From positions 1-33,388 of the IMG/VR virus record IMGVR_UViG_3300027870_000351: a stretch of 33,388 bases of DNA; one strand, written 5' to 3'. Below, in pieces: positions 26,146 through 28,488 of this stretch (positions are counted from its first letter, which is position 1; each line of letters begins with the position of its first letter). The stretch is from a virus. The translations under genes and the position numbers were made by a program. The notes beneath the pieces are model-generated. The model saw nothing but the letters and a program-made list of their open reading frames with translations, was not told where the DNA came from and did no database searches.

Positions 26146-26182
26146 CTTTTCGGGCAAACGAAAAGCCGCCGGATCAGGGCGG
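26146..26182 (-). terminator. weak terminator-like hairpins at the end of the cro-like gene (tR1-like)
   Basis: On the minus strand CCGCC pairs with GGCGG across the cro-like stop codon, followed by CTTTTC (26162-26182). A second hairpin, CTTTTCG/CGAAAAG (26146-26165), follows at once. The short T-run makes this a leaky terminator, like tR1 after lambda cro. No nut-like sequence was found for this transcript. Confidence 0.45.
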
Positions 26183-26428
26183 GGACACCGCGCGGCGCTT
26201 GCCGGGGTGAGCTGTCGAACGGATGAAGGCCCAGTCGGTCGCCGGGCACAGTTCTTCGCAGGTCAGCATCCGGCCGCTTTCGCGCTCCAGATTGATGGCC
26301 AGCTTCTCGGAACAGGCCCGATTCCCGTAGCCGACCTGGCGCAGGTAATCGAACGACGTGCCGCAGCGGGCCGCGAAGGATTCCCGGGCTTCCACCGGGA
26401 TTGCGTTCAGGTAGTCGATGAGCTTCAT
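26174..26428 (-). CDS. Cro/YdaS-like DNA-binding protein
   Basis: This is an 84-aa protein. MKLIDYLNAIPVEARESFAARCGTSFDYLRQVGYGNRACSEKLAINLERESGRMLTCEELCPATDW is a helix-turn-helix of the YdaS/Cro type (PF15943-like), with the recognition helix around SFDYLRQVGYGNR. It is the first gene of the leftward early operon and divergent from the repressor, so it should act as Cro. The ATG at 26428 lies only about 8 bases beyond the -10 box, and no good ribosome-binding site precedes it, so its transcript may be almost leaderless. An in-frame ATG at 26464 lies upstream of that promoter and is unlikely. Confidence 0.82.
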   Translation of the reverse strand: MKLIDYLNAIPVEARESFAARCGTSFDYLRQVGYGNRACSEKLAINLERESGRMLTCEELCPATDWAFIRSTAHPGKRRAVSPP

Positions 26429-26435
26429 GGCTTCA

Positions 26436-26464
26436 ACTGTATCAAACGATAAAGTCAAAGTCAA
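26436..26464 (-). promoter_or_regulatory. early leftward promoter (PR-like) for the cro-like operon
   Basis: Minus strand: -35 box TTGACT (26464-26459), 17-bp spacer and -10 box TACAGT (26441-26436). The operator dyad at 26440-26451 covers the spacer end and the first bases of the -10 box, so bound repressor would block RNA polymerase. The predicted start is near 26429. Confidence 0.75.
26440..26451. promoter_or_regulatory. operator dyad O1 in the switch region
   Basis: TATC-AAAC-GATA is a 4-bp-arm inverted repeat within the PR-like promoter. The same TATC...GATA frame recurs at 28473-28484 at the same place relative to the second early promoter. Confidence 0.6.
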
Positions 26465-26469
26465 TCAAA

Positions 26470-26482
26470 TGATAATTTATCA
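26470..26482. promoter_or_regulatory. operator dyad O2 in the switch region
   Basis: TGATAATTTATCA is a perfect 13-bp palindrome with 6-bp arms, located 5 bp upstream of the -35 box of the PR-like promoter. It overlaps the likely -35 region of the repressor's own promoter. Binding here could modulate repressor synthesis. Confidence 0.65.
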
Positions 26483-26504
26483 GATGCTAAAAGTGCGGGA
26501 TAAT
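26476..26504 (+). promoter_or_regulatory. possible repressor-maintenance promoter (PRM-like)
   Basis: Plus strand: weak -35 TTTATC (26476-26481) inside operator O2, 17-bp spacer and -10 GATAAT (26499-26504). The predicted start near 26511 coincides with the repressor ATG, implying a leaderless mRNA as for lambda cI. The poor -35 fits a promoter that needs activation. Confidence 0.5.
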
Positions 26505-26510
26505 TTCCGG

Positions 26511-27221
26511 ATGAACATGTATCAGCACCGCCAACAGCGTCTGCTCGCCCTGATCGACTCCGACTACGGTGGCGAGCGGGTGCGCTTTTGCGACAAAACC
26601 AACCTCAGCGAGTCCAGGCTCGCGCAGCTGCTGTCGAAGACCTTCCGCGACGGCACTGCCTTCACAGAAAAGACCGCCAGGAAGCTGGAGATTCTGGCGA
26701 ATCTGCCGCCGTTGTATTTCGACCAGGGCGTGTTCGATTCAGGTGAGGCGCCGGCCGCCAGCCCATTCCTCAAGGTAGAGCCGGTCGAGGACTCCGATCC
26801 TGCGCTGATCCAGATTCCGAAAGTCAGCCTGCGCCTGTCCGCTGGCATCAGTGGGTTCGACGTCGAGCCGGAGCCATATGACGGAACCACGACGATGGTT
26901 CCCGCCGACTGGGTGCGACGCCGTGGGTTCGACCGTTCGAAGCTCCTGGCGATCCGCGTGCGCGGCGAGAGCATGGAGAGCACGTTCTATGAAGGCGACC
27001 TGGTGATCATCAACGTGGCGGACAAGGAGCCAACCGACGGCGGCGTGTTCGCTGTGAACTACGAAGGCGCGCCAGTGGTCAAGCGCATGGAGCGCGACGC
27101 CGGCCAGTGGTGGCTGAAGTCCGACAATCCGAATCAGCACAAGTATGGCCGGAAGATTTGCCAGGGTGACGACTGCCTCATCATCGGGCGCGTGGTGCGC
27201 CGGGAAGGTGAGCGTTTCTAA
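26511..27221 (+). CDS. cI: LexA/CI-type phage repressor (S24 peptidase)
   Basis: This is the 236-aa lysogeny repressor. The N-terminal helix-turn-helix (RQQRLLALIDSDYGGERVRFCDKTNLSESRLAQLLSKTF, about residues 8-46) should bind the TATC/GATA operators. The C-terminal S24 domain has a candidate Ala111-Gly112 cleavage site (LSAGISG), catalytic Ser154 (RGESMESTFYEGDLVIINV) and Lys191 (GGVFAVNYEGAPVVKRM). It should therefore cleave itself with activated RecA, giving SOS induction. I set the start at 26511; ATG 26517 is an alternative. No Shine-Dalgarno sequence is clear. Its stop overlaps the next ATG (TAATG), so the lysogeny genes downstream are co-expressed. Confidence 0.92.
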   Translation: MNMYQHRQQRLLALIDSDYGGERVRFCDKTNLSESRLAQLLSKTFRDGTAFTEKTARKLEILANLPPLYFDQGVFDSGEAPAASPFLKVEPVEDSDPALIQIPKVSLRLSAGISGFDVEPEPYDGTTTMVPADWVRRRGFDRSKLLAIRVRGESMESTFYEGDLVIINVADKEPTDGGVFAVNYEGAPVVKRMERDAGQWWLKSDNPNQHKYGRKICQGDDCLIIGRVVRREGERF

Positions 27222-27499
27222 TGCATTACGCGGTGGTGGGCCTGCGCGGCGTGCGCATGGCTGTGGTGTTGGTCGAGAAATCGCGCCTCGCGGCCGAGTT
27301 CGCGGAGCCTTTGCTGGTCCAGTTGCAGGCGCAGTTCCGCATGGGCGTGATGCTGGTGGCGCGCGACCCGGCGGCGGTGAATGGCCTGCGGGCCTATGCG
27401 CAGTTCGACGAGGCGCCGTACCTGTTCGCGTTGCTGGCCGGCGAGAACATCGAGTGGGAAGAAGTGCCGGTGCTGGCTGAGCCGGAATTGCCGTTCTAG
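27221..27499 (+). CDS. repressor-linked hypothetical protein
   Basis: This is a 92-aa alpha/beta protein (MHYAVVGLRGVRMAVVLVEKSRLAAEFAEPLLVQLQAQFRMGVMLVARDPAAVNGLRAYAQFDEAPYLFALLAGENIEWEEVPVLAEPELPF). The order strand-helix-strand-helix suggests a small ferredoxin-like or Rossmann-like unit. Its ATG overlaps the repressor stop codon (TAATG), so it should be made in lysogens. I associate similar proteins with prophage LexA-type repressors, without a known function. It occupies the first position of the rex-like interval. Confidence 0.65.
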   Translation: MHYAVVGLRGVRMAVVLVEKSRLAAEFAEPLLVQLQAQFRMGVMLVARDPAAVNGLRAYAQFDEAPYLFALLAGENIEWEEVPVLAEPELPF

Positions 27500-27508
27500 G
27501 GAGAGGCG

Positions 27509-28069
27509 ATGAGGAAGATAATTTCTGCTGTGCTGGCCTGCGTATTGGCTGCTGGGTGCGCATCGCCGCGTGATGCGACCAGGGCGTTCATTGCTCAGGA
27601 AACGCAGGTCACGCACATGTGTCTCGACCCAGTGCTACAACTGCCGTTTGAGGCCCGGGTCACAGTCGACCCGCGCACCGGGCGCTCGCCGTTCTCCAAC
27701 GCGGCTTGGTGCTACTCGAACCAGATCAAGTCCGTGGCCAGGATGACTAGCTATCCCCACGCGGCCCTCGTGGGAGACTTTGCCGACTACCTGACGCGAC
27801 TGACTGCCGCCCGCGACCAGGGCATCGTGGCGACGCCGGTTGCTTTGGCTGCGTACCAGCAGGCCGCCGGCCTGTTCCGGCAGTCGATCATCGACGCCGA
27901 CGCTCGCCTGGAGGCGCAAGCTCGCCGACAGCTCGCAAACCAGGTCGCTACTTTCGGCCTGCTGATGGCCGCCGTATCGGCCGAGCAGGACCGCCAGCGT
28001 GCGGCGAATCGGCCGGTCGTGTGCACGCTCACCGGCGTCTATGTGCAAAACACGGTGGTGTGTAATTGA
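27509..28069 (+). CDS. predicted lipoprotein, lysogeny operon
   Basis: This is a 186-aa protein with a signal peptide and lipobox (MRKIISAVLACVLAAGC, Cys17). The exported domain is helical (FADYLTRLTAARDQGIVATPVALAAYQQAAGLFRQSIIDADARLEAQARRQLANQVATFGLLMAAVSAEQDRQRAANR), with Cys residues at HMCLD, AWCYSN, VVCTL and TVVCN that could form disulfides. GGGAGAGG precedes the ATG. It is co-transcribed with the repressor and overlaps the next lipoprotein gene. A role in superinfection exclusion or lysogenic conversion is plausible from expression and location, not from homology. Confidence 0.7.
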   Translation: MRKIISAVLACVLAAGCASPRDATRAFIAQETQVTHMCLDPVLQLPFEARVTVDPRTGRSPFSNAAWCYSNQIKSVARMTSYPHAALVGDFADYLTRLTAARDQGIVATPVALAAYQQAAGLFRQSIIDADARLEAQARRQLANQVATFGLLMAAVSAEQDRQRAANRPVVCTLTGVYVQNTVVCN

Positions 28070-28365
28070 AGCTGCCGCCAGGTCGCGCATGCGTATTGCT
28101 TGCGTTGCTCCTGGCGCTGTCGGGCTGCGCCCGCCATTACGTCGATGTGCCATACGATGATCCTTACGGCTTTTTCTCTGGCTTCTGGCATGGCCTGATT
28201 TTCCCGCTCACCGTCTGCGTAAATCTCCTGTCTTGGCTTCTCTCGCTATTCGGGGTTAGCTTCCTTCAAGGGATCGAAATCATCGGTCGGCCAAATACCG
28301 GGTTCTTTTACTACCTTGGATTCTTTTTCGGCCTGAGCGCGGCCGCCAGCTCAACCCCAAGCTGA
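28066..28365 (+). CDS. small lipoprotein with a hydrophobic body, lysogeny operon
   Basis: This is a 99-aa protein with a TTG start overlapping the previous stop codon. The signal MKLPPGRACVLLALLLALSGC gives a lipobox (Cys21). The mature part has DPYGFFSGFWHGLIFPLTVCVNLLSWLLSLFGV, a probable membrane segment, then GIEIIGRPNTGFFYYLGFFFGL. The DPYGFFSGxWHGxIxP signature is, to my memory, shared by small membrane proteins in many bacterial genomes, without a known function. By hand count 28261-28320 has 45% GC, well below its neighbours, which suggests acquired cargo. A terminator follows. Candidate superinfection-exclusion factor. Confidence 0.68.
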   Translation: MKLPPGRACVLLALLLALSGCARHYVDVPYDDPYGFFSGFWHGLIFPLTVCVNLLSWLLSLFGVSFLQGIEIIGRPNTGFFYYLGFFFGLSAAASSTPS

Positions 28366-28384
28366 CGCCAAACCACTCCATACA

Positions 28385-28408
28385 GCCCGCCGCGCGCGGG
28401 CTTTTTTT
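28385..28408 (+). terminator. intrinsic terminator of the repressor/lipoprotein operon
   Basis: GCCCGC pairs with GCGGGC around a 5-nt loop and is followed by seven T residues on the plus strand. It ends the lysogeny transcript just before the second early promoter region. Confidence 0.88.
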
Positions 28409-28436
28409 CGTCCCTGCCTTCCACGCTCCGCGTTTT

Positions 28437-28454
28437 TGATAAATTTCTTTATCA
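28437..28454. promoter_or_regulatory. operator-like inverted repeat upstream of the PL-like promoter
   Basis: TGATAAATTTCTTTATCA has 7-bp arms (TGATAAA/TTTATCA) and a 4-bp centre. It ends 5 bp before the -35 box, the same spacing O2 has at the PR-like promoter. Its half-site spacing is 5 bp longer than in O2, so only the promoter-proximal half may be used. Confidence 0.5.
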
Positions 28455-28459
28455 AACGC

Positions 28460-28488
28460 TTGACCTCTACTTTATCAATTGATATAGT
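28460..28488 (+). promoter_or_regulatory. early rightward promoter (PL-like) for the recombination operon
   Basis: -35 TTGACC (28460-28465), 17-bp spacer and -10 TATAGT (28483-28488). By hand alignment it matches the PR-like promoter at 23 of 29 positions. A start near 28495 leaves a leader of about 40 nt before the first gene. The operator at 28473-28484 overlaps the spacer and -10. Confidence 0.85.
28473..28484. promoter_or_regulatory. operator dyad in the PL-like promoter
   Basis: TATCAATTGATA is a perfect 12-bp palindrome overlapping the end of the spacer and the -10 box. It occupies the same place as the 26440-26451 dyad in the PR-like promoter. Confidence 0.7.

Follow-up and report, generated by a model that had tools for sequence, protein, structure and literature searches.

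Predicted exported cargo behind the cI repressor of an environmental phage lineage

Three small genes, two of them with lipoprotein signals, follow a cI-type repressor gene in an IMG/VR virus record of 33,388 bases (hereafter the window, meaning this whole stretch), which is partly shared with the record IMGVR_UViG_3300002184_000010 at 100% protein identity. The initial annotation read these genes as one possible exclusion or conversion module in the position that rexAB takes in lambda. This raises the question of whether they form a dedicated system or are occupants of a place that other phages fill differently, and of what such cargo might do for a lysogen.

The immunity region and its cargo operon

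The features of the region, in window coordinates, are as follows.

26174..26428, minus strand: cro-like repressor gene, divergent from cI (phrog_35 transcriptional repressor, E=1.5e-8)
26440..26489, no strand: OR-like cluster of three TATCAANYGATA palindrome sites, at 26440, 26463 and 26478 (palindrome scan)
26511..27221, plus strand: cI-type S24 repressor (PF00717, E=8e-19; phrog_4)
27221..27499, plus strand: o92, predicted 92-aa cytosolic protein, start overlapping the cI stop, C-terminus EPELPF
27509..28069, plus strand: lipoA, predicted 186-aa lipoprotein, lipobox Cys17 (+2 Ala)
28066..28365, plus strand: lipoB, predicted 99-aa lipoprotein, TTG start overlapping the lipoA stop, lipobox Cys21, DPYGFFSGFWHG motif
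28384..28409, plus strand: intrinsic terminator at the end of the cI-cargo operon (hairpin 28384-28402, then a T run; 7-bp stem with 6 GC pairs)
28450..28484, no strand: OL-like operator pair, sites 28450 and 28473 (palindrome scan), the second in the PL spacer
28460..28488, plus strand: PL-like sigma-70 promoter, TTGACC-17-TATAGT (from the sequence)

The TATCAANYGATA palindrome was proposed from reading the cro-cI intergenic sequence and was then scanned for with at most 2 mismatches. The window holds 10 matches where 2.28 are expected, a number reached in 0 of 100 shuffles, although this statistic is partly circular, the pattern having been derived from these very sites. Only one of the 10 lies outside 26440-26489 and 28450-28484, and the site at 28473 is a perfect 12-bp palindrome. 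Because operator-like sites fall inside the longest cI reading frame, the real start is probably the ATG at 26511 or 26517 and not 26418. In an alignment of 10 relatives, the Ala-Gly cleavage site and the Ser and Lys of CI are invariant, as in self-cleaving repressors. Since operator-like palindromes stand on both sides of the operon, the region, as read from its sequence, follows the lambda plan of OR, cI, cargo, terminator and OL/PL, with the cargo between cI and OL.

The plus-strand run of cI, o92, lipoA and lipoB extends from 26511 or 26517 to 28365, and the three cargo reading frames lie where the initial annotation had placed them. The translational linkage that it described was found at both junctions concerned, TAATG between cI and o92 (cI stop 27219-27221, o92 ATG at 27221) and TTGA between lipoA and lipoB. 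At the remaining junction, o92/lipoA, 9 nt separate the two genes, and the ribosome site there, GGGAGAGG, is strong. The TTG at 28066 is the lipoB start, as an in-frame TAA just upstream rules out an earlier one. All three cargo genes show a coding GC3 bias, which is weaker in lipoB. The rexAB-like position also holds, with the cargo directly downstream of cI in one operon ahead of PL, as does the strong terminator before that promoter; a similar hairpin is also present 3' of the lipoA relatives in two other loci (L007 and L008). The lipoboxes of the two predicted lipoproteins are good ones, LAAGC-17 in lipoA and ALSGC-21 in lipoB, and are retained in the relatives of both.

lipoA, lipoB and the slot behind cI

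The predicted model of lipoA (pLDDT 73) consists of a helical body and a C-terminal two-Cys hairpin. This hairpin, RPVVCxxxGVYVQNTVVC, is kept in all three lipoA relatives, while overall identity falls to about 43-45%. Two of the relatives adjoin repressor regions: in L007 (78%) the gene stands immediately downstream of an S24 repressor whose N-terminal domain is unrelated, and in L008 (43%) it stands behind an Arc-like gene, itself beside an HTH repressor. The dN/dS of lipoA against the L007 gene is ~0.12 (NG86), which indicates purifying selection. No relatives were found in cultured phages and plasmids, and the single weak match among 399 genomes, with a stop inside, was judged to be due to chance. 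Neither lipoA nor lipoB matched the sequence of a known defence or exclusion protein (PHROG, Pfam, NCBIfam, PADLOC, PDB), and the fold search with the lipoA model gave no similarity, its best match being no better than E=1.8.

lipoB has a GC content of 56% against 65% for the window; its low-GC stretch at 28261-28320, previously put at 45%, has a value of 46.7%. The DPYGFFSGFWHG signature noted earlier is borne out, its YGFFSGFWHG core being invariant across the lipoB family. A relative with 64% identity lies directly behind a different cI in L005, and further relatives occur in two betaproteobacterial MAG records. lipoB carries both a GFxxGxWHG core and a match to phrog_30702 (E=7.7e-5), a match that is stronger for its relatives in L003 (2.8e-11) and L018 (1.9e-25). 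Through phrog_30702, distant relatives are found in Cellulophaga phages, on Vibrio plasmids and on bacterial chromosomes; since some are chromosomal, the biochemical role of lipoB need not be anti-phage. The predicted lipoB model (pLDDT 52) was too poor for a fold search.

The surroundings of these lipoB relatives vary. In several bacterial genomes (L019-L024) they lie between nrdA- and nrdB-like genes, named by eye from the translations. In a Sulfuritalea MAG (L002 5676-8600) a relative is found among predicted exported proteins together with a thermonuclease-like gene, and in L003 a short thermonuclease-like ORF lies just downstream of the relative.

Related loci were gathered through the RecT-like gene and through the repressor; a prophage survey of 399 genomes with the RecT-like protein gave nothing at E<=1e-60. 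The first ORFs behind cI were read directly, without a gene finder, the automatic gene call having missed low-GC slot genes such as the lipoB relative of L005, and were clustered at 60% identity into 53 clusters. Signal peptides and lipoboxes were called by a home-made rule, and the background small genes were filtered by codon bias. By this rule, predicted lipoproteins make up 15 of the 53 slot clusters against 3 of the 816 further small genes in those loci (~0.3%), one of these three being the L008 slot gene itself. When secreted proteins are included, predicted export rises to 27/53 against 29/816 (3.6%). Leaving aside the loci found through lipoproteins, 12 of 50 clusters are lipoproteins (P=1e-13; 1e-18 for all exported proteins), and 10 of 50 when two doubtful lipoprotein calls are dropped as well (P=4e-11). 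The effect is so large that the home-made signal rule, the reading without a gene finder and the codon-bias filter are unlikely to be its cause.

Besides lipoproteins (L031, L032, L039, L054, L056, L071-L073, L084, L111 and L114), the slot holds the secreted domains Adhesin_E (L029) and Rap1a (L035) and a family with the pattern DPxSxxF...KNxxGGYxGF (L066, L077-L080, L091, L115, L120 and others). The cargo changes readily: the repressors of L007 and L029 are 70% identical and their cargo is unrelated. Some of the lipoproteins are mosaic, with tip or body in common and never both. Between L031 and L032 the similarity is confined to the final 83 residues (54%), the body of L031 is common to L039, and L039 has its body, not its tip, in common with L073. 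Two-Cys C-terminal ends likewise recur on different lipoprotein bodies.

A fixed two-gene system of lipoA and lipoB was considered and rejected, as lipoB is missing beside lipoA in L007 and L008, and lipoA is missing beside lipoB in L005. Because each is found without the other, the place behind cI is a swap-in slot for predicted exported proteins and not one dedicated pair. The recurrence beside unrelated repressors that the initial annotation had proposed to look for thus holds for the individual genes, and strongly for exported cargo as a kind, but not for the pair. At L051 (6478-7158), the slot is filled by genes judged by eye to encode a HigA-like antitoxin and a HigB-like toxin, which run on the opposite strand, and not by exported cargo. 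At L031 (3166-3444), a Cas2/VapD-like small protein (by eye) comes next after the slot lipoprotein.

The DPxSxxF family is also encountered away from the repressor. It lies between tail genes in Klebsiella phage KpLi5 and E. coli phage LMessi, just ahead of the tape measure gene in a Klebsiella prophage, and ahead of the endolysin gene in phage PAJU2. The DPxSxxF/KNxxGGYxGF domains, common in the slot, that take moron positions in the tail gene clusters of cultured Klebsiella and E. coli phages are at L135 1907-2734, L136 2435-2782 and L137 2213-2734. The cor gene and HK97 gene 15 have genome positions similar to those of the mEpimmI exclusion lipoproteins. For these lipoproteins phage exclusion has been demonstrated, and their genes are part of the structural cluster (PMC11893012), the kind of region that the DPxSxxF family occupies in the Klebsiella and E. 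coli phages.

The cI-coupled protein o92

Only two of the three cargo genes, those of the lipoproteins, count as envelope genes; the 92-aa protein belongs to a separate family of predicted cytosolic, cI-coupled proteins. Under a lenient rule its N-terminus was called a signal peptide, which a stricter rule and the homologues ruled out. Besides o92, the family, named A5, comprises 10 members next to cI in related phages and one on a chromosome, with proteins of ~95 aa. In L061, L068, L081, L082, L099, L102, L103, L107 and L110 the gene begins at position -3 or 0 counted from the cI stop, and the copy in L101 is fragmentary. Every cI-coupled member whose C-terminus is intact ends in [D/E]xPF, like the SSB tip, and only 5 of 978 other genes end by this acidic-PF rule.

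o92 had no match in Pfam, PHROG or NCBIfam, a profile search of PDB sequences matched none, and no A5 relatives were found in cultured phages. Most slots are without o92. From its sequence and position, we regard o92 as a separate, predicted cytosolic protein coupled to cI, of an undescribed family. The chromosomal member (L132 1498-1788, minus strand) ends in DAPPPF and lies near an Hcp-like T6SS gene (by eye). Elsewhere the position of o92 is taken by HIRAN-like proteins (by eye) whose translation begins at the cI stop, at L105 5753-6145 and L115 5531-5926.

Possible functions and relation to known systems

If the region works as its layout suggests, CI bound to the operators would shut PR and PL, and the cI message from PRM would read on through the cargo, so that the lysogen would make the two lipoproteins. 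Both would end up on the periplasmic side of the outer membrane, since the residue at Cys+2 is not Asp in either (the E. coli Lol rule). Supported by the operon architecture, cargo that is expressed in the lysogen and acts in its envelope seems likely. Such a conversion of the envelope might block incoming phages, at the receptor or at DNA entry, as with Cor, Llp, Ltp, the mEp Lpp proteins and perhaps Hex; we propose that each phage would carry a different protein because the targets differ. On position and analogy, superinfection exclusion is the main job that we would tentatively favour for this cargo. It is rather unlikely that the envelope cargo, blocking phages, would be one side of a package whose other side is o92 as a mimic of the SSB tail. 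In that case o92 would bind the SSB-tip pockets of host RecO, RecQ, ExoI or PriA, and so limit RecA loading and repressor cleavage or disturb the replication of a phage that has entered. If true, this phage family would couple its repressor to an SSB decoy.

Exclusion has to be weighed against lysogenic conversion without any effect on phages, in which a PRM-expressed exported protein raises host fitness through T6SS protection, adhesion or envelope stress. Cargo with Adhesin_E and Rap1a domains would also be in keeping with conversion for fitness or T6SS immunity, Rap1a being an immunity domain, and the lipoB relatives on bacterial chromosomes and Vibrio plasmids point the same way. However, the proteins known from downstream of cI (Rex, Hex, RexABpp) have phages as their targets, one slot family turns up again in tail clusters, and the rapid swapping and tip shuffling resemble an arms race, so that we find conversion alone possible but somewhat doubtful. 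A chief role in stabilising or tuning lysogeny, by repressor protection as proposed for Hex, would make o92 the main actor. Its family keeps a constant place at the cI stop and its C-terminus is like that of SSB, the CI relatives retain the RecA-type cleavage site and the catalytic Ser and Lys, and Hex itself lowers RecA-dependent induction (PMC3564112). Yet o92 is absent from most slots, and CI and RecA are not within easy reach of a secreted lipoprotein, so that we hold this reading to be very unlikely. That the cargo would be captured bacterial lipoprotein genes with no function in the phage is extremely improbable: the lower GC and the sparse distribution of lipoB are in its favour, but lipoA is under purifying selection, the lipoB motif is invariant and exported cargo is strongly enriched at one place.

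The pair lipoA and lipoB is new as sequence, whereas its kind, cargo behind cI and exclusion lipoproteins, is already known; the new points are the enrichment of predicted exported cargo behind cI and the o92 family, whose members may be repressor-coupled mimics of the SSB tail. If the place behind cI is a constant address for envelope proteins made by lysogens, it would give a searchable rule, namely to read the first genes behind cI. In environmental phages the slot yields dozens of candidate exclusion or conversion factors, undescribed and non-homologous.

One close parallel is Hex (heterologous exclusion) of phage 434, the classic exclusion protein in this position, read here from lambda imm434 (L133 2573-2977); Sf6 gene 38, HK633 and HK446 belong with it. 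According to the part of PMC3564112 used here, hex lies behind cI on a PRM transcript detected by RT-PCR, excludes P22 and lowers RecA-dependent induction, for which repressor protection was proposed. In the current record, the start of hex and the stop of cI share 4 nt, and the published start is noted as wrong. Read from Met25 in the sequence printed in that paper, Hex begins with MIRIAALLSILLTTSANS followed by ECW, a predicted Sec signal peptide, and the predicted cleavage between SANS and E43 gives exactly the N-terminus of the purified active fragment, Glu43. This coincidence suggests that Hex is exported, though the match may be fortuitous, given that the fragment was obtained by factor Xa treatment of an MBP fusion; the same part of the paper contains no discussion of Hex export. 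Hex has long been treated as a cytosolic repressor-protection protein, and export, if true, would alter the account both of exclusion and of the shortened purified form. Unlike lipoA and lipoB, Hex would be secreted and not lipid-anchored, and it has a reported effect on RecA-mediated repressor cleavage (same part of PMC3564112). It has no sequence similarity to any of the slot proteins, and its traits are split here, the overlap with the cI stop being found in o92 and the predicted export in lipoA and lipoB, never in one protein.

RexAB of lambda and RexABpp of P. putida (PMC12894663) are, like lipoA and lipoB, encoded downstream of CI. RexAB, however, pairs a cytosolic DNA-binding RexA with a multi-pass membrane RexB, to which o92, lipoA and lipoB have no homology; no cargo gene gave a RexA- or RexB-like match, and lipoA and lipoB carry lipoboxes. 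The small lipoproteins of phrog_30702, in Cellulophaga phage phi17:2 and in bacteria, share with lipoB the pattern GFxxGxWHGxI...NxGxxYxxGFxxG but occupy other contexts, the bacterial ones between nrdA- and nrdB-like genes. Ltp of TP-J34 (PMC3952083), Lpp021 and Lpp010 of mEpimmI (PMC11893012), Cor and Llp are phage-encoded lipoproteins, as lipoA and lipoB are predicted to be, with unrelated sequences. Lpp021 and Lpp010 sit in the structural cluster, whereas Ltp is an exclusion lipoprotein of the lysogeny module, transcribed and made in the prophage state (PMC3952083), and so resembles lipoA and lipoB in position. BstA, remAIN, GiPD474 and the modules of mycobacteriophages Sbash and Butters are likewise variable, lysogen-expressed cargo near a repressor; they are not lipoproteins, whereas the cargo in the lineage of the window is mainly of the predicted exported kind.
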